IMG/VR virus record: IMGVR_UViG_3300009158_000031
Location: 124,001-188,000 of that record
Source: a virus
Length of the DNA stretch: 64,000 nt
Reading direction: 5' to 3' (one strand)
The notes beneath the pieces were generated by a model. The model was not told the DNA's origin, did not search any database, and worked only from the letters and a program-made list of their open reading frames with translations. A program made the translations under genes and the position numbers. Of this stretch, positions 9,186 through 64,000 are shown in pieces (the stretch's first letter is position 1; each line of letters starts with the position of its first letter).

Positions 9186-9230
9186 ATGAAAAACTACATA
9201 AACACATTTGAAGAGTTCTTAAATGAATCA
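9186..9230 (+). repeat. Repeated tag-coding sequence, group A (4 copies)
   Basis: The 5' ends of the genes starting at 9186, 9455, 9921 and 10528 are nearly identical for about 42 bases; the 18-base core ACATAAACACATTTGAAG is the same in all four. A second group (starts at 11671, 12513, 12991, 13355) shares ATGAAACATA...ACATTC...TTCCTAAA-type sequence, and 12513 and 13355 agree over ~35 bases. Confidence 0.85.
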
Positions 9231-9449
9231 ATTAACGAAAATGTTTGGGCAGATATAACTAAATCAGCAAAACCTACTAAAGGTCCTTGGACTCTAGTAT
9301 CATCTGATAATAAAAAAGTTTTAGCCCAGAGCACAACTGATAATATACACATGCTTCCTGCTCATTTTGAATCACTGAAACTAAAATTTCCAAAATCAAG
9401 TATTCATATAGAAAGTGCTTCCGGTGAAGTAATTTGGAAAATGAAATAA
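9186..9449 (+). CDS. Tagged internal head protein (CTS family, 1st of series)
   Basis: An 87-residue protein starting MKNYINTFEEFLNES. The first ~14 residues match the T4 capsid-targeting sequence (as in IPIII, MKTYQEFIAE) followed by a psi-x-E prohead-protease site (LNE before S); a second site SINE lies four residues on. The remainder (WTLVSSDNKKVLAQSTTDN...) is a small domain with a repeated-strand look but no recognised family. By analogy to T4 internal proteins it would be placed in the prohead core, clipped, and possibly ejected with the DNA. Confidence 0.7.
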   Translation: MKNYINTFEEFLNESINENVWADITKSAKPTKGPWTLVSSDNKKVLAQSTTDNIHMLPAHFESLKLKFPKSSIHIESASGEVIWKMK

Positions 9450-9454
9450 TCAAT

Positions 9455-9910
9455 ATGAAAAATTACATAAACACATTTGAAGGTTTCTTAAATGAAGTTC
9501 GATTAAATGAAGATAAAATGCCGGTAGTTTCGGACTTTAAAGCTAACCCAACCGTATTGGATGGTGTTAAAATTAAAAACCTAGCCGAAGAAAATCCTGA
9601 ACAGGTGTTCATTATAAAGAAGGAATATGGCAAATGGCCTGATGATATACTTGCTAAATACAGCAAAACAGAAACTTCGATAACTGAATTTCTACCAATC
9701 GATAAATATGCTACAATGACAAAGTTAGAGTACTTAGGTTCTATGGCTGAAGTTATTGATATGATGTTCGGAGCTGACGAATGGCCACCAGCTAAACAGA
9801 AAGAACTTGCAAATGAACCATACTTATCTACTAATAAACAAGGAGAAGTTATAATAGATGTTCAACGAGGAAATATCAGTAAGTTTGTAAAATTAGCAGA
9901 AAAAAAGTAA
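9455..9910 (+). CDS. Tagged internal head protein (CTS family, 2nd)
   Basis: Start taken at 9455 rather than the in-frame ATG at 9434, because the tag MKNYINTFEGFLNE begins here and the upstream ATG overlaps the previous gene. 151 residues. LNE is followed by a second likely protease site RLNE five residues later. The body (MPVVSDFKANPTVLDGVKIKNLAEENPEQ...) is helical-beta, ends in lysines, and resembles no family I recognise. Next gene follows after 10 bases. Confidence 0.7.
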   Translation: MKNYINTFEGFLNEVRLNEDKMPVVSDFKANPTVLDGVKIKNLAEENPEQVFIIKKEYGKWPDDILAKYSKTETSITEFLPIDKYATMTKLEYLGSMAEVIDMMFGADEWPPAKQKELANEPYLSTNKQGEVIIDVQRGNISKFVKLAEKK

Positions 9911-9920
9911 TTTAACTAAT

Positions 9921-10526
9921 ATGAAAAATTACATAAACACATTTGAAGGCTTCTTAAATGAATCTAAATACAAAGGAAATATCTCAGGAGATTCTGCTGA
10001 ATATATTGCTAAAGAAATGTCACAATATGTTAAAGGCATAATTAAACAGCCTAATGATAATGTTACTTACTTCCATTTAAAAGATAAATCCGGCAAATCA
10101 AAAGTTATTAAAACCTTATTAGATGTTTATGGATTAGAAGCAGTAGATGGTGGAAATCAATTTTCTCCATCACCTACTATTAAATTTGATAACGATCAAC
10201 TTCTTGAATCCCTTAGATCAGGTCCTAATGATGCTAAAATATATCCCATTAAAAAAGGAAGTGATCCAGAAGATCTTCTTTCCGGTAGATCTAGAGGATC
10301 ATGGGTAAGTTCAAAAACCATTAATGATATATTAGACGTTTTTGGTAAGGAAATGACCATTTATAAAGGTGACGAAATCACAGAATTCCTTCAAGTTAAT
10401 AGCCGAGATAATAGTGACATATATAAAATAGTTAGACGAGATTTAAGAGGACCTAGAACGGTTGGTTATATCCCTTCATATTATCAGAATTTTGACCAAA
10501 CCGAAGAAATAAACAATACTCGTTAA
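9921..10526 (+). CDS. Tagged internal head protein (CTS family, 3rd)
   Basis: A 201-residue protein beginning MKNYINTFEGFLNES, with one predicted psi-x-E cut after residue 14. The mature part contains a KxDxSGKSKVIKTLLDVYGLEAV segment that suggests an alpha/beta domain, and a C-terminal half with GRSRGSWVSSKTINDIL. No known catalytic signature was found. It sits one base before the next tagged gene. Confidence 0.68.
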   Translation: MKNYINTFEGFLNESKYKGNISGDSAEYIAKEMSQYVKGIIKQPNDNVTYFHLKDKSGKSKVIKTLLDVYGLEAVDGGNQFSPSPTIKFDNDQLLESLRSGPNDAKIYPIKKGSDPEDLLSGRSRGSWVSSKTINDILDVFGKEMTIYKGDEITEFLQVNSRDNSDIYKIVRRDLRGPRTVGYIPSYYQNFDQTEEINNTR

Positions 10527-10527
10527 T

Positions 10528-11010
10528 ATGAAAAACCACATAAACACATTTGAAGGATTCTTAAATGAAGCTCGATTAAATGAAAGCAAACCTGCTATGA
10601 TGTACTATGTAGTAGCCAAGGATGTCATTAAGGATAGAAGACTTAAAGTATATCCTGAAAACATCGAAAGACTTTTGAACAACTTACAAGCAGACGGACA
10701 TTTATCATATGATGCAACGATAACATCAGATGCAAAGAAAGATATTGAAAACGCATTAGATAAGTTAGACTTGAAAGGGAATGAATTGCTTTCATATGCA
10801 AGAAAAGGCATGAAGTACGAAAGTGAAGATGTTAATGAAGCCAATCAAATTAAAGTTGGAACTTTTGTTAGATACAAAAAAGACGAAGATTTTACTGGTG
10901 GTAAGATCAAATCTATAAGTTCTGGTAAAGCAGAAATACATAATTGGGATGGTTCAACAACAGAACTTCCACTTAAAGATCTTGAATATATTGAGTCTTG
11001 GAATAATTAA
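10528..11010 (+). CDS. Tagged internal head protein (CTS family, 4th), two modules
   Basis: A 160-residue protein with tag MKNHINTFEGFLNEA, a second site RLNES, and a third site DVNEA near residue 107. The third site would split the product into a ~85-residue helical module and a ~53-residue C-terminal module. The C-terminal part (GTFVRYKKDEDFTGGKIKSI, GKAEIHNWDGSTTELPL) reads like a small SH3/KOW-type barrel. This is a small version of the polyprotein layout at 61434-62957. Confidence 0.7.
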   Translation: MKNHINTFEGFLNEARLNESKPAMMYYVVAKDVIKDRRLKVYPENIERLLNNLQADGHLSYDATITSDAKKDIENALDKLDLKGNELLSYARKGMKYESEDVNEANQIKVGTFVRYKKDEDFTGGKIKSISSGKAEIHNWDGSTTELPLKDLEYIESWNN

Positions 11011-11013
11011 AAT

Positions 11014-11421
11014 ATGAAACCTATCAAACTATATAAAGAGTTTATTAATGAGGCAAAAGACGTTGATTCGGCAATGAAGAAAATCGATGATTTGCCAAAA
11101 GGATCAACCTTTGAAGATGCCAAAAGAATAGATCGTATTTTTGATATCAGTAAACATAGTTGGAGTGAGGTTGTGGAAACTTTTGAAAAGAATCAAAAAT
11201 CCGCAAAGATTAAACCGATAAATATAAAAGACATACAAATAACTCAACCAAATATCCAGAGCAATAAAGTGAAAGCCATGATTGAGAAATTTGATAAATT
11301 ACCTACAATTAATGCAGTTCAATTTCCGGATGGAATATCCATATATGATGGACATCATCGTCTATTAACTGCTTGGTCAATAGGAGAAACACGAATCAAA
11401 GTTAATCTTGTAAAAATATGA
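11014..11421 (+). CDS. Tagged ParB/sulfiredoxin-like domain protein
   Basis: A 135-residue protein starting MKPIKLYKEFINEA (tag and INE cut). The C-terminal half has the ParB N-terminal/Srx-fold signature: INIKDIQITQ, then FPDGISIYDGHHRLLTAW near residue 109, where DGHHR is the nucleotide-binding box, then GETRIKVNLV. Members bind CTP or ATP or cleave DNA. A capsid-addressed member could act on phage or host DNA just after entry. The GHHR box is clear; the activity is inferred only. It overlaps the next start by 4 bases (ATGA). Confidence 0.7.
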   Translation: MKPIKLYKEFINEAKDVDSAMKKIDDLPKGSTFEDAKRIDRIFDISKHSWSEVVETFEKNQKSAKIKPINIKDIQITQPNIQSNKVKAMIEKFDKLPTINAVQFPDGISIYDGHHRLLTAWSIGETRIKVNLVKI

Positions 11422-11648
11422 AACACCTACACACATACAAAGAGTTCTTATTCGAGTCAACGATTTCCGAAATGAAGATAACTTCAGTTGGCGTTAAAGA
11501 GATTCTTAAGAAGCTTTATGACGATGCTAAACTTACAAAAGCATTACATTTTAAAAACTTCCGAGATGCACTCGATTCTATTCTTGGATATAGTCAAACG
11601 GAATTAGAAGAATTAGAAACAGAGATAAAAGAACTAGAGCACGCTTAA
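11418..11648 (+). CDS. Tagged internal head protein (CTS family, 6th)
   Basis: A 76-residue protein starting MKHLHTYKEFLFES; the predicted cut is after FLFE, a variant psi-x-E. The mature part is all-helical and ends in an acidic coiled-coil (ELEELETEIKELEH). It is translationally coupled to the preceding gene by the ATGA overlap. Function unknown. Confidence 0.65.
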   Translation: MKHLHTYKEFLFESTISEMKITSVGVKEILKKLYDDAKLTKALHFKNFRDALDSILGYSQTELEELETEIKELEHA

Positions 11649-11670
11649 GATAATTTAAAAAATAAAAAAC

Positions 11671-12501
11671 ATGAAACATACACAAACATTCAAAGAGTTC
11701 TTAAATGAACAAGAAGAGATACTTAATGAAGATAGTTCTCTTGCACTTATGGTAATACTGCAAGCGGCTATAGTTAATGGACTTCTAATAGGTCAAATGG
11801 CGGCTAGTGGTGGTGGAGATGGCTTTCATCCTATCGATGATTTAAAAGCTTGGTGGGCGAAACGTAAAAAAGATAAAGCTGTAAAAAGTATTGTTGATAA
11901 ATTAAAAGAAGATCCTGAAGTTTTAGCCTTTTTGAAAATGTCAAATTGGGCACAAAAAGGAAAATGGTATAAACTTATTGAACCTAAACTTAATGACGAA
12001 GAGAAAAAATATCTAAAAAGTATTTCAAGAACTCCATTTATGAATGAGGAAGTTAATGAAAATTCCGCAATCCTTCTTGATCTTTCTGATAAGCAGTTGG
12101 CACTTTCTATAAAGGCTAAATTACCAGCCAAGTATAAAAAAGATACGAAGACTTTAATATACAATGCTCCATATTCAATGGTTTCTCATGGTGCTAAACT
12201 TACAAACCTTCCAACTCCTTCACGAGTATATCAATTGGAAAAAATGAATGAAACTTATAGAGGATCTGATAATTGGATATCTTTATCTTCATTAGCTATT
12301 GTACAAGATACAACCAATCAAGTTACTTTTGTAATTGTATATGAAGAATTTGATCCAATTCAATTTGATGAAATAAAATCAAATAAAGATTTGTACAAAG
12401 AAGAGGATTATAAAGACGAAAAAGATTTGCTTAAAAAGATGCAAACTTGGTTTGCTTATTCTGAAAAGGTCTTTAAAGAAGTAATAGAAGATCACTCATA
12501 A
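11671..12501 (+). CDS. Tagged head protein with membrane-like segment, two modules
   Basis: A 276-residue protein starting MKHTQTFKEFLNEQ with a second site ILNE. Residues ~24-46 (LALMVILQAAIVNGLLIGQMAA) are a long hydrophobic stretch, unusual for a capsid-internal protein and suggestive of membrane insertion after ejection. A further site EEVNE near residue 130 would release a C-terminal ~145-residue domain (DLSDKQLALSIKAKLP..., FVIVYEEFDPIQFDE). No family recognised. Confidence 0.66.
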   Translation: MKHTQTFKEFLNEQEEILNEDSSLALMVILQAAIVNGLLIGQMAASGGGDGFHPIDDLKAWWAKRKKDKAVKSIVDKLKEDPEVLAFLKMSNWAQKGKWYKLIEPKLNDEEKKYLKSISRTPFMNEEVNENSAILLDLSDKQLALSIKAKLPAKYKKDTKTLIYNAPYSMVSHGAKLTNLPTPSRVYQLEKMNETYRGSDNWISLSSLAIVQDTTNQVTFVIVYEEFDPIQFDEIKSNKDLYKEEDYKDEKDLLKKMQTWFAYSEKVFKEVIEDHS

Positions 12502-12512
12502 AAAAACATAAT

Positions 12513-12989
12513 ATGAAACATATACTCACATTCAAAAACTTCTTAAACGAGGAAAGAGTTTATGGAATGTTCAATGATTCTCAAGGAAAACCATCTAAAC
12601 TTTCACAAGAGATTTTAGATATTTGTCTAAAAGCACTACCTAAATATGTAATAGATAATATTGAATCAGTTGAAGCTTCCGGTTATTCTAAGACAAATTT
12701 AGCATCACCTCCTACGGTTAGTAATAAAGGTCAATCAAGAGGTGAAAATGATTATACGACTATTGTTCTAATATTCAAAAATCCAATGGGAAAATCTAAA
12801 ACAACTGAATTGACGGTTGGATTAAGAAAAAGAACTTCTGGACCAGGAACTGGTTATCTTGCGGTTAAACCTACTGCAAATGGTCATTATGTTTTACCTG
12901 AACATAGTGCCGCAATTGAATTTTATGATGCAGCGCCTGAAAGTTTAGCGGATTTATATAAGAGTACACTAGAAAAATTAATGAAATAA
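12513..12989 (+). CDS. Tagged internal head protein (CTS family, 8th)
   Basis: A 158-residue protein starting MKHILTFKNFLNEE. The mature part has a loop rich in Gly/Ser (SNKGQSRGEND), then a strand pair TTIVLIFKNPMGKSKTTELTVGLR and a C-terminal helix. No recognised domain. Its tag-coding DNA is almost identical to that of the gene at 13355. Confidence 0.66.
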   Translation: MKHILTFKNFLNEERVYGMFNDSQGKPSKLSQEILDICLKALPKYVIDNIESVEASGYSKTNLASPPTVSNKGQSRGENDYTTIVLIFKNPMGKSKTTELTVGLRKRTSGPGTGYLAVKPTANGHYVLPEHSAAIEFYDAAPESLADLYKSTLEKLMK

Positions 12990-12990
12990 T

Positions 12991-13353
12991 ATGAAACATA
13001 TACCAACATTCGATAATTTCCTAAATGAAGGAACCATCATGATTTTTCACTACTCAAAGAAATCTTCAGAGATTGATGGTGACGTGAAAGAATTACAGAA
13101 GAAAGCTCAAGAATTTATTAAAATCGCAAGAGACAAAGATTACAATATATCTTCTAACGATTCCGTACTTTATTTTCCAAATTTTAAATGGGCAGGAGGT
13201 AAACAAATCTTTGGACCATCATTAGGTATTAAAGCAGGATCAGAAACAATGCTAATTAATCCAATAGGCTCTGATAAAATAATCAAGATTAGCGAAGGCT
13301 TGCTTGTTCGTTTTGTAAAAGACGGCAGAATCGAATCATATAATTTATACTAA
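12991..13353 (+). CDS. Tagged internal head protein (CTS family, 9th)
   Basis: A 120-residue protein starting MKHIPTFDNFLNEG. The remainder is alpha/beta with DYNISSNDSVLYFPNF and a strand-rich C terminus; no catalytic motif recognised. It starts one base after the preceding stop and is followed one base later by the next tagged gene. Confidence 0.65.
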   Translation: MKHIPTFDNFLNEGTIMIFHYSKKSSEIDGDVKELQKKAQEFIKIARDKDYNISSNDSVLYFPNFKWAGGKQIFGPSLGIKAGSETMLINPIGSDKIIKISEGLLVRFVKDGRIESYNLY

Positions 13354-13354
13354 T

Positions 13355-13603
13355 ATGAAACATATACTCACATTCAAAAACTTCTTAAATGAAGGATTCA
13401 AGAAACCTTATAGCGAAAAAATGAGCCTTGAGGATTTTTCTGCTATAGAAGTTGGAAGTGAGGTTCTTTATGCTGGAGCAACTTACGAAGTGGTTAACAA
13501 CGATGGTGCAACTCTTCAATTAAAACCGGCTAAAGGTGCTAATGGTAAAGCGACTAAAGTTAATTTCTCAATGTTTAATGTTGCTGGAGCAATCCGCGAT
13601 TAG
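13355..13603 (+). CDS. Tagged internal head protein (CTS family, 10th)
   Basis: An 82-residue protein starting MKHILTFKNFLNEG. The mature ~68 residues (VGSEVLYAGATYEVVNNDGATLQLKP) look like a small SH3-like beta barrel. It is the last of ten consecutive tagged genes; an 85-base gap with no gene separates it from the sugar operon. Confidence 0.66.
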   Translation: MKHILTFKNFLNEGFKKPYSEKMSLEDFSAIEVGSEVLYAGATYEVVNNDGATLQLKPAKGANGKATKVNFSMFNVAGAIRD

Positions 13604-17684: not shown

Positions 17685-18566
17685 ATGGAATTTTTAAAGT
17701 ACAACAACTTCATTCTTAATGAGCAATCTAAATGGGTTAATTTAGACACTATTAATGAAGCTGCACTTACGGCTACTCCAGATAAAAGCGTTAAGTTTGG
17801 TATTTGTATTACCACTTACAAAATTGATGCTGGTGGTAGACAAAATCACATGTCCACCGAAAAAGTTCTGAGAGAATGTTTAGAGTCAGTTAAAACACAG
17901 AGTTGGCCAGAATGGAAAGTCTATATTATGGGAGACGCATATCCACAAGAAGAATGGCCGGAAATTGAAAAACTTGCTGCATCTATCGTTCCAAAAGATA
18001 AACTTTGGATGGATAATCTAAAAACACCAGGAGAAAGAGACAAATATGATGGATCTATTCCACATCTAACAGGAGGAAATACGGCAGCAAACGTGACCAT
18101 CGCTCAAATGAAAAAAGATGGCATTAAGTATTTTGCACGTCTTGACCATGATGATGCTTGGAAAACCGATCATTTAAAAACTCATGCTACTGCTTATACA
18201 CAATTCCCAGAAGTTGTTTATAGTTTAACACAAGCTCGCAAGAAAAGAGTAAAAGGAGATGCCGGATCTTACATGTATTTTCCTGACAAAGGAACATATG
18301 AGAATTCTGAAAATAATTACACATTAGGTCTTGGTGGACAATGTCATTCAGCAATGACTTGGAAATTAGAACCTTTAAAATATATCAAGTATCGTACTTG
18401 GGATCAACAAAAAGCGACACAACCTCGTAGAAAAGAGTGCTTCCCTGGCGATTGGGATAATACTGAAAGAATTAAAAGAATTGTAGAAGATGAAAATAAT
18501 AAACACTCAATGATTTTTGTTCCTAAATTAACTGTAAAATATCGTAACTCTGAAGGAAAATTTTAA
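17685..18566 (+). CDS. Glycosyltransferase with capsid-targeting-like N terminus
   Basis: A 293-residue GT-A fold protein: FGICITTYKID at ~38-48, ESVKTQSWPEWKVYIMGD, the metal-binding RLDHDDAW near residue 155, and a C-terminal acceptor region. Residues 1-14 (MEFLKYNNFILNEQ) mimic the head-protein tag with an ILNE cut, and TINEA at ~25-29 gives a second site just before the catalytic domain. It therefore looks like a glycosyltransferase packaged in or assembled with the capsid. It directly follows the amino-sugar genes, so it probably uses their product. Confidence 0.82.
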   Translation: MEFLKYNNFILNEQSKWVNLDTINEAALTATPDKSVKFGICITTYKIDAGGRQNHMSTEKVLRECLESVKTQSWPEWKVYIMGDAYPQEEWPEIEKLAASIVPKDKLWMDNLKTPGERDKYDGSIPHLTGGNTAANVTIAQMKKDGIKYFARLDHDDAWKTDHLKTHATAYTQFPEVVYSLTQARKKRVKGDAGSYMYFPDKGTYENSENNYTLGLGGQCHSAMTWKLEPLKYIKYRTWDQQKATQPRRKECFPGDWDNTERIKRIVEDENNKHSMIFVPKLTVKYRNSEGKF

Positions 18567-53284: not shown

Positions 53285-53524
53285 ATGTTCAAGAAATTCT
53301 TTCAATTTATAAGTGAAGGCAAAAAACCAAAACCGCATGAGATCCAACAAGCTGACCCTCAAAGTCCTCCTGTAGATCCATCAATAGTAACTAAATGCCC
53401 TAAGTGTGGAAGTACTGGTATGATTTGCGATTGCTATACTGATGATTATTATAATGCAAAGCTGCCTCAACAGGCACCAAGACCTAATAAAAAAGTAAAA
53501 CCTAAAACGAAAAAAGATGAATAA
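53285..53524 (+). CDS. Short tagged zinc-ribbon protein
   Basis: A 79-residue protein starting MFKKFFQFISEGKK, a variant head tag with ISE before G. A Pro-rich spacer is followed by CPKCGSTGMICDC (two Cys pairs, zinc-binding) and a basic tail (PNKKVKPKTKK). After cleavage it would be a small DNA-binding-like protein. Overlaps the next gene by 8 bases. Confidence 0.62.
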   Translation: MFKKFFQFISEGKKPKPHEIQQADPQSPPVDPSIVTKCPKCGSTGMICDCYTDDYYNAKLPQQAPRPNKKVKPKTKKDE

Positions 53525-58864: not shown

Positions 58865-60178
58865 ATGAAAAGATTATTAAAGTATAAAGACTTTGTTGAA
58901 GTTTTAAGCGAAGGTGCTAGACTTCAAGCATTGGTCGATGATCTTCCTTTGTTTGAAGGTGGTGCATACGGTCACCTATCACATCCTTTCGAAGACATGA
59001 ATTTGACTATGGCAGATTTGCATACGATGATACAAGATACTGTTAATGGATCTTTTGGTCCTGAGAATTTTGTTCAAGAGAAAACTGATGGTCAGCAAAT
59101 ATCAATATCTTGGAAGGATGGTAAATTGATTGCGGCAAGAAATAAAAGTCATCTAAAGAATGCTGGCGAAGCCGCATTAGATTCTTCTGGTATTGCTTCT
59201 ATGTTTGCTGGTCGTGGTGATATCGAAATTGCCTATAATGCAGCAATGGAAGATCTTCAAAAATCTATTGGCGGTTTATCAGATAAAGATAAATTAGCCT
59301 TCTTTGCTAATGGTAAGAAATTCGTTTCATTAGAAGTTATTACGCCTATCACACAAAATACAGTTCCTTATGGTCAAAATATGCTTGTATTCCATGGAGT
59401 ACTTGAATATGATGAATCCGGAAATGTTATCGATGAAGATAAACAAGCTGCTAGAAATCTTGGTAAATCAATTGCTGATGCGAATCTAGCTGCACAGAAA
59501 ATGTTCTTTGTTAGAGGACCTCAAGATATGGATATTAAACCATTTCCTAATACCGCAAAAAGATCTTCATATTACGAAAAGAAATACAACGAAATCCTTA
59601 CTACTTGTGGATTAACTGATGCATCTACCGTATTTGATTATGCAATAGGTATGGCTAGATTAGTACTTGAAGAAGAAGCTAAATCTGCAAAGGTTGAAAT
59701 CCCTGCATCTGCAATCGATGGTTTGGCTGCACGTATAGCAGATATTAATAAGTCTTTTTCGGTTTCGTTAATCAAGAAAGAACTTGGTGATAATGCTGAT
59801 TGGTATTTTGATCTAGAAAAGAAAAGTGCCAAACAACTTAAACGTAAAATTTATGCTCCTCTTGAATCGCTTTTCCTTGAAATAGGAACAGAATTCATGA
59901 AGAATATGTCTACCTTCCTATCTGCAAATCCTACGGAAGCAGCCGAAGCAATGAAAAATGAAATTGATTCTACTATCGCAAAGATTCGTACAAATGGTGA
60001 CGAAAAAGACGTAGAAAAATTAGAACACGAATTAACTAGAGTTACTGCTGCTGGTGGTGTCGAAGGATTGGTTCCTACTGAAGGAATTACATTCGTTTAT
60101 AAAGGTAAACTTTATAAGTATACTGGAATTTTCGCTCCACTACATCAAATACGCTCTATTTTAGCTTATAAAAAATAA
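58865..60178 (+). CDS. Tagged RNA/DNA-ligase-like nucleotidyltransferase
   Basis: A 437-residue protein; start at 58865, where the tag-like MKRLLKYKDFVEVLSEG begins (cut after LSE), not the in-frame ATG at 58769 over the terminator. It shows ligase-superfamily motifs: motif I EKTDGQ (K-x-D-G) near 72-77, followed by KDGKLIAARNK; motif III-like FVSLEVI; motif IV EGLVPTEG; and KLYKYTGIFAP near the C terminus. RNA/DNA ligases join nicked ends through a lysyl-AMP. A capsid-addressed ligase-like enzyme would be delivered with the genome. Whether it ligates or only binds cannot be told. Confidence 0.78.
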   Translation: MKRLLKYKDFVEVLSEGARLQALVDDLPLFEGGAYGHLSHPFEDMNLTMADLHTMIQDTVNGSFGPENFVQEKTDGQQISISWKDGKLIAARNKSHLKNAGEAALDSSGIASMFAGRGDIEIAYNAAMEDLQKSIGGLSDKDKLAFFANGKKFVSLEVITPITQNTVPYGQNMLVFHGVLEYDESGNVIDEDKQAARNLGKSIADANLAAQKMFFVRGPQDMDIKPFPNTAKRSSYYEKKYNEILTTCGLTDASTVFDYAIGMARLVLEEEAKSAKVEIPASAIDGLAARIADINKSFSVSLIKKELGDNADWYFDLEKKSAKQLKRKIYAPLESLFLEIGTEFMKNMSTFLSANPTEAAEAMKNEIDSTIAKIRTNGDEKDVEKLEHELTRVTAAGGVEGLVPTEGITFVYKGKLYKYTGIFAPLHQIRSILAYKK

Positions 60179-60374: not shown

Positions 60375-60830
60375 ATGACCGGATTGTTCAAAATTAATGA
60401 AGATTCTGCCTTTGGACCGGGAATGATGTTTGGCATCCCTGGTCCTGGTCCAAAAGCGGATTCTCCAAAACAACCTTCTGATAAAAAGAAGGAAAAAGGA
60501 ATTACCCCGAAACAAATGAAGAAGACTATACCATCATTCAAAAAATTTAACGAAGGTTTTGCTTACGTTAAAGATCCTTTCAGAGAAGGTGAAAGGATGT
60601 TCAGTAAAGATATTAAAATAGACAATGTTGCTGTTATTAATATCAATGGTTCTATTGATGGATTAGATGCTACACACACAGCAATCGTATCCGTTATAAC
60701 TAGTACTATGGATAACTTCGGCGAAGATCTTGGTAAAGAACGAATCATATTAACACAAAAAGATTTTACCACTAAAGCAGAGGCTGAAAGCTTTTTGAAG
60801 AAAATTGAAAAAGAAATTATCTACAAATAA
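60375..60830 (+). CDS. Protein with internal head-type tag
   Basis: A 151-residue product. The first ~47 residues are Pro/Gly/Lys-rich; at 48-61 it reads MKKTIPSFKKFNEG, a good tag with FNE cut, so translation may start at the ATG at 60516, or the first part may be a removable leader. The rest is a small alpha/beta domain (VAVININGSIDGLDATHTAIVSVITSTMD) with a C-terminal helix. It overlaps the next gene by one base. Confidence 0.6.
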   Translation: MTGLFKINEDSAFGPGMMFGIPGPGPKADSPKQPSDKKKEKGITPKQMKKTIPSFKKFNEGFAYVKDPFREGERMFSKDIKIDNVAVININGSIDGLDATHTAIVSVITSTMDNFGEDLGKERIILTQKDFTTKAEAESFLKKIEKEIIYK

Positions 60831-61417
60831 TGAAGAAATTTAAAGAATTCGTTACAGATATTCTGATATTTGAAAAGATTGATGGAAAGGAAGTTTGTAT
60901 ATTTCCTGGACGTTTTCAACCTTTTCATAATGGACATATTGAAGCAATACATCGAACAGCAAAAGCTTTCGGAGTTCCTGTTATCCCGGTACAAATCAAA
61001 TCAAAGAACGAAAATTCACCTTTCCCAGATTCTCTTCTAGAAAAGATTGGTAAGGCCATGATTAAAGAATTTCCTTTCATTGAAGATTATGTACTTTATC
61101 CTCCTGATAAGAAAACTGTAGTACCTCAAATGGTTAAATTCCTTCAAGAAAAGGGTTATGATCCAATTGGTATTGGTTGTGGAAGTGATCGTTTAAGAGA
61201 TTATGAACGTCAAGTTGAATATCTAACATCACCGAAATCGGATGTTCAAGTTAATAAATTTTCGGTTGCAATGGTTGATGAACGAAGAGCCGATGGTCCT
61301 TCAGGAACAAGAGTTCGTGAAGCACTTATGAATGATGATAAAGAGGCATTCGAAAAAGCTACACCAAGATCACTACATCCTTTCTATAAAGAGCTACAAA
61401 AATACCTTAAAAAATAA
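60830..61417 (+). CDS. Tagged nucleotidylyltransferase (NMN adenylyltransferase-like)
   Basis: A 195-residue protein. The N terminus MKKFKEFVTDILIFEK is tag-like, with IFE as the likely cut; the catalytic domain begins at once with FPGRFQPFHNGHIEAI (HxGH nucleotide-binding motif) and ends with SGTRVREAL (the ISxTxxR motif). These mark the nucleotidylyltransferase family (NadM/NadR, CoaD, cytidylyltransferases); NMN adenylyltransferase is the closest in feel. It may serve NAD supply or another adenylylation, packaged with the DNA. Confidence 0.85.
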   Translation: MKKFKEFVTDILIFEKIDGKEVCIFPGRFQPFHNGHIEAIHRTAKAFGVPVIPVQIKSKNENSPFPDSLLEKIGKAMIKEFPFIEDYVLYPPDKKTVVPQMVKFLQEKGYDPIGIGCGSDRLRDYERQVEYLTSPKSDVQVNKFSVAMVDERRADGPSGTRVREALMNDDKEAFEKATPRSLHPFYKELQKYLKK

Positions 61418-61433
61418 AAATCATAATATAAAT

Positions 61434-62957
61434 ATGAAACCTATTAAAAACTACAACGAATTCATTAATGAAGCATGGATTGGTCCATTCGTATTCAATG
61501 AAGACATGACCGATGATGAACTAAAGGCTATATACCAAGGTGCATTAGATGGATTTGCTTATTGGCAAAAAGGATTTGAATATCCAAAAGCCGATTACAA
61601 AAAGGCATATACTGAAATTGGAAAGATTCTAAAGAAAAGAGGAGTTAATGTTGATGAATCTGTTAATGAAGGATCTAACGACGAAATGGTAAAACGGAGT
61701 TGTGTCGAAAGACTTTCTCAATTCTTTAGAGTTAGTCCAAACGCATTATCACATTTCAAATTTGATGGAACCGATAACATTAAAGCTTTAACAAAAGCTC
61801 TTAATTCTACATCAGATGAAGGAACCGAGGCATACTATAAAGTAGCAATCCGAGTTGGAAAACAAGATGCCGGTATCGAAGAATCTATCGAGGAATCAGC
61901 TAAATGTCCTCCTATATACATTCCGGTATTATCTAATATCGATCATACTAGAATAATCAAATGGATGGATATTCATTTTGATAGTCATAAATGGGATATG
62001 AAGAAATCCGGTGCTGGTTTTGAAATCGATGTTGAAAAACTATCTAGTCAAGAACAAGATGATTTATTAAAATATTTACACTCACAAGATTATTTAGAAG
62101 AATCTGTTAATGAAGCTTGGAGTAATATAGACACCGACAAAGCTGCCGATCTAATCAATAAAGAAATTGGAGTTAATCCTGGTTATTTCTTTATTGGCGA
62201 TGAAGATTTATGCATCAAATTTGATAAATTATGGACTGAAAAGAAATACAAAGTAGCTCTTAATATGTTATTTTTTATTGAAAATCTAAAAGATCTTAAA
62301 GACTTCATAAAACAAAACCAAAACGAATCGGTTAATGAAGCAGTATCACCAGAAGTACATCGTATGGTTAATAAATTTGTAACCGGTATGGCTGATAAAT
62401 ATGATTATTCTTTACAAGATGCAGTTTATGCAATACTAGACGTTTTAAAAAGTCAAAAATATAAAGGATTAAAAGAATCTGTTAATGAAGGTGAAACTTT
62501 AATATTTGATGAGATCGGAGAAAACCTAACCAAACTTCAGGATCAAATAGATGCAATGCTTAAATGGGAAATCACCGATCAAAAATGGATCGTTGCACTT
62601 AAAACAATTCAATCTGCCTGTTCTAAATTGGAAGATACTGTCGCTAAAGCTGATCAGAAATTAGGTGCTATTGAATATAATGAATCCATTAGTGAAGGTC
62701 TTTTAAAATTAGATGAAGGTGCTGTTAAACAATTTGAGATCGATTATAAAGACATGGAAAGTAGTATCAAACGAGGTATTGGTTGGATTGATCCTGAATA
62801 TGTGGCTGAAACTTGGGAGAATTCTTCAGATACTATTGATTATGAAATAGTTAGAAATGAAATTCTTACTCGTCTAATTAAAGCCGATCTTCTTTATACA
62901 TCACTAGATGGAGAAACTAAAGGTAAAAGAATTACCAACATAAGTCAAATTAAATAA
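61434..62957 (+). CDS. Tagged internal-protein polyprotein with repeated protease sites
   Basis: A 507-residue protein; start at 61434 (MKPIKNYNEFINEA), not the in-frame ATG at 61332 inside the previous gene. After the tag cut at residue 13 there are matching psi-x-E sites at 79 (SVNE-G), 227 (SVNE-A), 302 (SVNE-A), 352 (SVNE-G), 421 (SISE-G) and 428 (LDE-G), plus a weaker SIEE-S at 154. The pieces between them are about 50-79 residues long and each looks like a small folded helical or alpha/beta domain. This strongly suggests one precursor that the prohead protease cuts into several small internal proteins. None of the modules has a recognised family. Confidence 0.75.
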   Translation: MKPIKNYNEFINEAWIGPFVFNEDMTDDELKAIYQGALDGFAYWQKGFEYPKADYKKAYTEIGKILKKRGVNVDESVNEGSNDEMVKRSCVERLSQFFRVSPNALSHFKFDGTDNIKALTKALNSTSDEGTEAYYKVAIRVGKQDAGIEESIEESAKCPPIYIPVLSNIDHTRIIKWMDIHFDSHKWDMKKSGAGFEIDVEKLSSQEQDDLLKYLHSQDYLEESVNEAWSNIDTDKAADLINKEIGVNPGYFFIGDEDLCIKFDKLWTEKKYKVALNMLFFIENLKDLKDFIKQNQNESVNEAVSPEVHRMVNKFVTGMADKYDYSLQDAVYAILDVLKSQKYKGLKESVNEGETLIFDEIGENLTKLQDQIDAMLKWEITDQKWIVALKTIQSACSKLEDTVAKADQKLGAIEYNESISEGLLKLDEGAVKQFEIDYKDMESSIKRGIGWIDPEYVAETWENSSDTIDYEIVRNEILTRLIKADLLYTSLDGETKGKRITNISQIK

Positions 62958-63859
62958 TGCTAAAATTTAATCAATTTGTTAACCTGATTCTTAATGAAGG
63001 AGGTAATGCGATTGAGGATGCTCGTCCTATTTTGCAATCTGAAATAGATGCAACGTATGCATATGTTATTAAAAACATATATCCTCTTATTGGTCTTGCC
63101 GAAGATTTTGCTAAACCAATAGGATCTTTTAAGAAAAAAGCACCTGATCAAACATCTGGTGATATCGATATTGCCGTTCTTGCTGATAGAATTGCCGGAG
63201 AAAATGGAATTGATTTATCTCAGGTTCTTGAATTCATCGCATCTAAATTGAGTGATTATTCTCCGGTCGTTAGTAAAGGGTTTCAACAAGTTTCTATAGG
63301 TGTTCCAATTGAAGGTGATAAGAAAAAAGGTATTGCACAAATTGATTTGATGCTAACAGATAATCTGAATTTTTCCTCCTTCATGTATCATTCACCAGAC
63401 TTTACTCAAGCAGAATCCAAATATAAAGGACTTTACCGTAATATTCTACTAATGAATATCATTAGCAATTCGAAACGAGAAACTACCAAGCTAACCGACA
63501 AAGGTGAAATTGAAGAATATCGTTCATATGTACTTCGTCTAAATCAAGGTGTTGTTGCGGTAACCAAATCGTTTATAGGTAAGAAAGGGTTAGTTAAGAA
63601 TCCTACATTACTCAACGATCAAGATAAATTTATGTCTAATACTCCAGAAGTTATTGCGGAATTGGCATTCGGTCCGGATGTTCCCATTTCAGAAATAATG
63701 ACTTTTGAAGATACTTGGAGACATACAATGGATTCTAAATTTATTCACCAAGATAAATTAGATGCAATTCTAAAAGATTTCAGAACTAGATTACTTGCTG
63801 CTAAAGTTCCTTTCCCTATTGAATGTGTAGAACAATACCCAAATATATTTACATCATGA
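62957..63859 (+). CDS. Tagged nucleotidyltransferase (Pol-beta fold)
   Basis: A 300-residue protein starting MLKFNQFVNLILNEGG (tag with ILNE cut). The NTase fold shows GSFKKKAPDQTSGDIDIAV (G-S then D-x-D near 70-72) and AQIDLML (third Asp). Such enzymes add nucleotides to RNA, protein or small molecules (for example CCA-adding, MNT-type or OAS-like). It starts inside the stop of the polyprotein (TAATG) and is followed by another tagged gene. Confidence 0.82.
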   Translation: MLKFNQFVNLILNEGGNAIEDARPILQSEIDATYAYVIKNIYPLIGLAEDFAKPIGSFKKKAPDQTSGDIDIAVLADRIAGENGIDLSQVLEFIASKLSDYSPVVSKGFQQVSIGVPIEGDKKKGIAQIDLMLTDNLNFSSFMYHSPDFTQAESKYKGLYRNILLMNIISNSKRETTKLTDKGEIEEYRSYVLRLNQGVVAVTKSFIGKKGLVKNPTLLNDQDKFMSNTPEVIAELAFGPDVPISEIMTFEDTWRHTMDSKFIHQDKLDAILKDFRTRLLAAKVPFPIECVEQYPNIFTS

Positions 63860-64000
63860 TGTTAAAATACAATCAATTCGTTCAATGGTTAAATGAATCA
63901 GCTATGGCTCCAGTTGAATGGAATGAGAAGCCTAAATATCGAGTACAATTTCTTAGTTTCTTAGAAGATAAAAATAAAGAACTTATAATTGATGGTAAAT
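63856..64000 (+). CDS. Tagged internal head protein (3' partial)
   Basis: Runs off the window. It starts MMLKYNQFVQWLNES (ATG at 63856, or 63859), a clear tag with LNE cut, then VEWNEKPKYRVQFLSFLEDKNKEL. At least 48 residues are visible. Overlaps the previous stop by 4 bases. Confidence 0.65.
   Translation, partial: MMLKYNQFVQWLNESAMAPVEWNEKPKYRVQFLSFLEDKNKELIIDGK

Follow-up and report, generated by a model that had tools for sequence, protein, structure and literature searches.

The Tagged Gene Array

The window analysed in this work, i.e., a whole stretch of 64,000 nucleotides, represents bases 124001–188000 of a 254,393-base virus record (IMG/VR record IMGVR_UViG_3300009158_000031). Between positions 9186 and 13603, it harbors genes whose products share a short N-terminal sequence (the tag) ending in a glutamate, after which cleavage is predicted (written below as a slash). 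A preliminary description of this DNA had reported ten consecutive open reading frames (ORFs) of this kind; all of them are present, on the + strand, arranged head to tail, and each begins with the tag (lengths in amino acids, aa):

9186–9449, + strand: tagged gene 1, 87 aa; tag 9186–9227 (MKNYINTFEEFLNE/S); second site INE/N after residue 18
9455–9910, + strand: tagged gene 2, 151 aa; tag 9455–9496 (MKNYINTFEGFLNE/V); second site LNE/D after residue 19
9921–10526, + strand: tagged gene 3, 201 aa; tag 9921–9962 (MKNYINTFEGFLNE/S)
10528–11010, + strand: tagged gene 4, 160 aa; tag 10528–10569 (MKNHINTFEGFLNE/A); second site LNE/S
11014–11421, + strand: tagged gene 5, 135 aa; tag 11014–11052 (MKPIKLYKEFINE/A); ParB-like segment (weak PHROG match)
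11418–11648, + strand: tagged gene 6, 76 aa; tag 11418–11456 (MKHLHTYKEFLFE/S)
11671–12501, + strand: tagged gene 7, 276 aa; tag 11671–11709 (MKHTQTFKEFLNE/Q); second site LNE/D after residue 20
12513–12989, + strand: tagged gene 8, 158 aa; tag 12513–12551 (MKHILTFKNFLNE/E)
12991–13353, + strand: tagged gene 9, 120 aa; tag 12991–13029 (MKHIPTFDNFLNE/G)
13355–13603, + strand: tagged gene 10, 82 aa; tag 13355–13393 (MKHILTFKNFLNE/G)

The start of gene 2 is the ATG at 9455, not the TTG at 9434 of the mechanical ORF. The consensus MK-x(2-4)-[TSL][FY]xxF[LIV][NF]E holds for all ten genes. Past the tag, the bodies are unrelated to each other, as first described; a single pair of tagged bodies in the whole genome matches at E ≤ 1e-3, and neither member of it lies in the array. 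The second site noticed 4–8 residues beyond the first is likewise real (e.g., FLNESINE/N and FLNEVRLNE/D), and it is the same element as the polyprotein linkers described below.

Conservation and Distribution of the Tag

A strict DNA pattern of the tag (ATGAAN{9,21}TWYNNNNNNTTYNTNAAYGAR) was searched in the genome, with the reverse strand and the reversed pattern as controls. It retrieved 24 forward matches, all 24 in frame, and none in either control. A looser protein rule, after manual exclusion of 14 look-alikes (over six genomes), identified 32 tagged genes, to which five window genes with variant spacing can be added, giving about 37 in total. Besides the array, a second cluster of tagged genes lies at 217.4–224.7 kb of the record.

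According to the capsid protein, the nearest named phages are an uncultured 462-kb phage (55% identity), Tenacibaculum phage pT24, Sphingomonas phage PAU, the Chryseobacterium phages MA9V-1/2, and the Prevotella Lak phages; the host is therefore likely a member of the Bacteroidota. A close phage, G002, has a capsid protein 94% identical. The strict pattern yielded 21, 26, 15, 13, 10, 9, and 4 matches in related records and 11 in the 462-kb phage; five related records have 10–26 matches each, with two control matches in all, and the related phages harbor 10–38 tagged genes each. The same pattern did not retrieve any match from pT24, PAU, MA9V-2, Lak-B5, MaF61, or PTm1.

The comparison of 123 tags, 9–16 residues long and ending in [LIV]-x-E, revealed F or Y at position P4 before the cut in 123/123 and at P7 in 121/123, and L, I, or V at P3 in 123/123; these figures follow in part from how the rule was built. 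P1', the residue that comes next to the cut on its far side, lies outside the search rule; it is S, A, or G in 92 of the 123 tags compared to a background of 19.7% (P = 2e-39), and the same residues follow other psi-x-E triplets of the same bodies at 28.5%.

Adjoining tags are near-identical in DNA at 9186–10569 (four of the MKN[YH]INTF type) and at 12513–13393 (two MKHILTFKNF), which suggests that the tag was copied locally within the array. Genome-specific "flavours" of the tag, co-evolving with the core, are not claimed: the within-genome excess similarity was 0.015 and the maximum over 2000 shuffles 0.027.

Head Genes and the T4 Likeness

The preliminary description had likened the tag to the capsid-targeting and cleavage sequence of T4 internal proteins (IPs), cut by the gp21 protease. 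A protease of this type, which that description had proposed to look for, is present in the genome; it belongs to the S77 family (E 2e-14) and matches the PHROG "head maturation protease" (E 5.6e-42). The genome also encodes a gp23-type capsid protein. The protease is a fusion protein, whose long, psi-x-E-rich C-terminal part is probably a scaffold; in Tenacibaculum phage PTm1, such a fusion is annotated as "prohead core scaffolding protein and protease".

The study of T4 IPIII mutants revealed that targeting depends mainly on residues 4 and 7 and processing on residues 8 and 10; the T4 gp21 protease cleaves behind L/I-x-E (PMC9026906). In numbering relative to the cut, the four IPIII positions are P7, P4, P3, and P1, which are the conserved columns of the tag. 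The likeness to T4 is supported, but the preliminary description was incomplete, in that it missed the genome-wide extent of the system (about 37 genes) and the role of the second site as a polyprotein linker.

Both L-I-N-[ES] at the N terminus and L-[YS]-E-[NDSQ] at about residue 43, or close variants of these, are shared by the capsid protein and 20 relatives. The mature capsid protein of PAU comprises 520 of 585 residues according to N-terminal sequencing (PMC5646251), and the LME/N of this protein lies at most one residue from the sequenced cut. Furthermore, PAU has a tag of its own, MK[TS][LI]xxL[YF]E[SA](K)LNE[SA], on 17 genes (14 strict matches and no control match); many of them are near its head genes, and one was annotated by its depositors as "internal capsid protein". 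Near the capsid gene of the genome studied here, an 861-aa protein (G000:C1:106061-108646) has a tag-like C terminus (...EEYQFLINE).

Probable Polyproteins and Exchangeable Modules

When the bodies were compared between genomes, what is a whole protein in one phage often turned out to lie within a longer tagged protein of a second phage; a given cargo module can stand by itself behind a tag in one genome and be embedded in a polypeptide of as many as 1029 residues in the next. In 16 cases, the start of a body maps inside another protein, and 13 of these fall exactly at a psi-x-E, whose density is 0.024 per residue; reduced to distinct borders, about 11 of 13 coincide. A general test placed 85 of 184 borders near a strong site compared to 35.7 expected (standard deviation 5.4, maximum 56 in 2000), the interval counted having been shifted because homology often runs through the linker.

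One example in the window is represented by two nested features:

61434–62957, + strand: tagged polyprotein, 507 aa
62718–62954, + strand: module F, C-terminal module of the 507-aa polyprotein, 79 aa

The polyprotein has predicted cuts after residues 13, 79, 154, 227, 302, 352, and 428, that is, seven modules of 50–79 aa separated by linkers of the type ES[VI]NE/[GA]. Its orthologue in G002 lacks four of these units and carries an extra one, and the changes occur at cut sites. In general, the long polyproteins contain ES[VIL](V)NE/[GA] linkers, which divide them into units of mostly 30–95 aa. In tagged bodies, the density of double sites of the form ES[VIL]xE is about 40 times that in the 301 other genes, although the counts are small (6 vs. 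2).

Module F, searched alone, was retrieved from 43 viral loci corresponding to 32 distinct contexts, ranging between a tagged protein of 98 aa (MKHIKEYEEYLNE/GAVKQFDKDV) and central positions in proteins of 1016–1029 aa. In all 32 contexts it is directly preceded by psi-x-E, with G (18) or A (14) at P1', while the residues upstream of P3 vary freely. Cut exactly at psi-x-E, the module is predicted to fold alone (predicted local distance difference test, pLDDT, 95); its fold had no significant match in the PDB or among viral models, the best ones including winged-helix domains with E above 1.

Several bodies of the array recur in other genomes. Gene 7 is likely a two-module polyprotein with an internal site VNE/N after residue 130 (nucleotide 12060), and the first of its two modules forms the C-terminal module in both G003_39517 and G006_115110. 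The gene 1 body makes up the C-terminal module of G006_114173, where it follows VNE/G; the gene 5 body is also found in G007_2538 (59% identical); that of gene 8 is 66% identical in G002_74705, starting at the first residue past the cut; and that of gene 10 is the first module of G003_35252, where a nucleotidyltransferase module comes next. Moreover, repeats of about 30 aa (GNAFGDAVRKAKE..EFEFDGKTYKVEE) split by VEE/G occur in L147 (residues 127–186) and L131 (residues 317–389), and represent a candidate for the smallest module.

Proposed Mechanism and Alternative Explanations

The sequences themselves show the tag, the P1' preference, the protease, the capsid protein, the modularity, and the coincidence of sites with borders. 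With a probability of roughly 75%, we interpret the tagged proteins as capsid-targeted cargo, partly made as polyproteins, which the maturation protease would free inside the prohead. The inferred part of this reading comprises binding to the core, cleavage, packaging, ejection, and early function, and can be depicted as follows. The shared N terminus would be a propeptide of the T4 type; the tagged proteins would be synthesized late, their two aromatic residues (P7 and P4) would bind the prohead core, and the shell would then enclose the core-bound proteins. During head maturation, the phage's own gp21-type protease would remove the tag at [LIV]-x-E and would also cut the linkers of the polyproteins (ES[VI][VN]E/[GA] type). 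The cut tags would leave the head, DNA packaging would follow, and the cleaved head would hold many small, independently folded proteins, whose most likely fate would be to pass into the cell along with the DNA and to function early. The cargo domains would thus be exchangeable cassettes, each with a tag of its own or strung behind one tag.

What is new here is that many tagged proteins appear to be modular polyproteins; no paper in the library searched joins phage capsid and ejection proteins with polyprotein cleavage. We regard it as fairly probable that modules of about 30–95 residues follow one tag with protease sites between them, that maturation releases proteins sized for ejection through the tail, and that single genes and polyproteins are two states of one cassette system gaining and losing modules at cut sites.

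Some data weigh against this interpretation. Packaging, cleavage, and ejection are deduced for this phage, and the T4 core proteins, too, are cut at many such sites and then discarded, so that the polyproteins could be scaffold. The tag rule derives from the tags themselves, its hits were cleared manually of the 14 look-alikes, and the phages compared are related, which makes the counts not fully independent. An earlier, looser border test was weak (144 vs. 119.9 expected, standard deviation 8.4); tagged bodies are not enriched in plain psi-x-E, only in its doubled or strong form; and the AlphaFold model of the full-length polyprotein was poor (pLDDT 47) and unusable.

The main rival explanation, which we hold to be unlikely, is that the polyproteins, and perhaps many tagged proteins, belong to the prohead core or scaffold and are chopped to clear the head without being delivered, like gp22, gp67, and gp68 of T4. 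These have many psi-x-E sites and are cut in the T4 prohead into several fragments at the same motif (PMC9026906); furthermore, some long polyproteins open with a conserved, helical-looking region (MAQVNKISSFKSFTE...) that might be a core component. However, the T4 proteins are reduced to peptides, whereas here the borders fall between domains and not through them, and the sites separate predicted folding units that recur alone as tagged proteins; module F, compact in prediction, is also found alone behind a tag (L153, L155). Some of the cargo is enzyme-like (the cytidylyltransferase module and a RimK ATP-grasp on a tagged protein), and the fast exchange of modules and the mostly orphan bodies are a better fit to cargo than to scaffold.

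The linkers might instead be scars of gene fusion, with the N-terminal tag targeting the protein, the internal sites left uncut, and the multidomain proteins working whole, as proposed for polyvalent proteins. The linkers do look like the end of the tag (FLNES-VNE/G), and fusions of neighbouring genes would leave such remnants; yet most borders keep the cleavage half of the tag without its targeting half, and P1' of module F is G or A in 32/32 contexts, with variation upstream of P3. The protease that would cut the linkers should also be in the same compartment. We find this explanation improbable. Least credible of all is a role of the shared N terminus in translation control, membrane attachment, or another assembly, with the T4 likeness due to convergence. 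It is true that the tag is here connected to the head through sequence only and that local copying accounts for part of the similarity between array neighbours, whose tags are near-identical in DNA; the P1' preference, the agreement with the functional positions of the T4 tags, a protease and a capsid protein of the matching types encoded by this genome, and the different tag carried by 17 genes of the relative PAU, many near head genes and one an "internal capsid protein", all argue against it.

Comparison with Known Systems

The T4 proteins IPI–IPIII and Alt resemble the tagged proteins in several respects: the N-terminal propeptide is short (10–19 residues in T4), carries aromatic residues where targeting is determined, and terminates in psi-x-E; an S77 protease and a gp23 capsid protein are present; and the bodies are unrelated, variable, and clustered; T4-type internal proteins also have a small residue (A/G/S) after the cut. 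T4 has three IPs and Alt, and at least ten IPs are known across its T-even relatives, compared to about 37 tagged genes in the single genome studied here. Unlike that of the T4 IPs, the consensus here ends in [LIV]NE, and the tag also heads multi-module polyproteins.

The polyvalent proteins of phages and conjugative elements (Iyer et al. 2017, PMC5512222) are similar in having several small domains per polypeptide in heavily shuffled order, and are virion-associated. In contrast to them, the prohead protease would here release the modules at coded linkers, and the modules are also found singly behind a tag. None of the domains typical of polyvalent proteins, such as metallopeptidase (MPTase), ADP-ribosyltransferase (ART), or MuF, was retrieved by Pfam from the 61434 polyprotein and the other scanned tagged proteins, or by PHROGs from two long polyproteins. 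In giant phages of the phiKZ/SPN3US type, many ejection proteins are packaged, and several of them mature through a gp21-related protease that prefers serine at P1'; their propeptides, however, are mostly longer than 100 residues and have the motif A-x-E, whereas the tags described here have 9–16 residues and [LIV]-x-E.

Other Tagged Genes and Putative Cargo Functions

The figure of about 17 tagged genes in the window given by the preliminary description is correct if variant spacings count: the ten array genes are joined by those starting at 17685, 53285, 58865, 60830, 61434, 62957, and about 63856. In addition to the 507-aa polyprotein, these are:

17685–18566, + strand: variant-tagged glycosyltransferase-2 protein (MEFLKYNNFILNE/Q, then TINE/A)
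53285–53524, + strand: short variant tag MFKKFFQFISE/G, 79 aa; weaker candidate
58865–60178, + strand: variant-tagged 437-aa protein (...LPLFE/GGAYGHL)
60830–61417, + strand: variant-tagged cytidylyltransferase-like (HIGH) enzyme (MKKFKEFVTDILIFE/K)
62957–63859, + strand: variant-tagged 300-aa protein (MLKFNQFVNLILNE/G)
63856–64000, + strand: first part of another tagged gene (M(M)LKYNQFVQWLNE/S), continuing past the window end

The 58865 protein has the orthologues G003_43518 (LNE/GGAYGHL) and G007_77679 (LLE/GGAAGHM) and, by eye only, a KxDG ligase-like motif; a Pol-beta-type motif (SGDIDIAVL) was recognized in the 62957 protein, also by eye only. The 60830 module occurs inside the tagged G003_35252 (MFE/A) and G006_171442 (VFE/A) as well. 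Other T4-type phages, namely Stenotrophomonas phage Marzo (L173), Xanthomonas phage X1 (L174), and cyanophage P-HM1 (L172), have relatives of this nucleotidyltransferase, mostly untagged, next to the baseplate hub and comparable late genes; Xanthomonas phage X1 also encodes a 76-aa protein with the tag-like TIPSFEDFLAE/D near its N terminus. The protein at 60375–60830 of the window has no N-terminal tag but a tag-like TIPSFKKFNE/G at residues 51–60, which could reflect a longer propeptide or a wrong start.

The search of the array bodies against Pfam, PHROGs, NCBIfam, and PADLOC did not retrieve anything above threshold, except for the weak ParB-like match (11014). Tagged bodies are mostly orphans in general; the recognisable ones are RimK-type ATP-grasp (C1:109124), KTSC (C1:222842), ParB-like (11014), cytidylyltransferase-like (60830, also as a module), and glycosyltransferase-2 (17685). 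The presence of enzymes among the cargo would favour an active role after entry. On the idea that the tagged nucleotidyltransferase restores NAD, the NadV/NAPRTase family was looked for in the genome and was not matched. For a tagged 132-aa protein (G000:C1:218420-218818), whose homologues in two related phages also carry the tag, Pfam gave a weak hit below threshold (E 7e-5) to a cysteine methyltransferase effector family.

Genomic Context and Biological Meaning

The array is located directly behind a 1083-aa gene and a 184-aa gene, all on one strand. From their position and sequence, these two genes are read as putative tail sheath and tail tube, respectively; this arrangement, in turn, suggests that the array is expressed late.

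In T4, IP1-3 block host restriction enzymes (PMC12373910), and the data presented here suggest a modular set of helper proteins carried into the host. If this is true, the head cargo would be recognizable by a sequence label throughout a large group of giant phages, most of them uncultivated and with Bacteroidota as the hosts of their named relatives, and the packaged set of such phages could be listed from genomes alone. The processing of polyproteins by the capsid protease would represent an added route for loading many small proteins into a phage head, and the modules, with their natural linkers, would provide ready libraries for testing functions.

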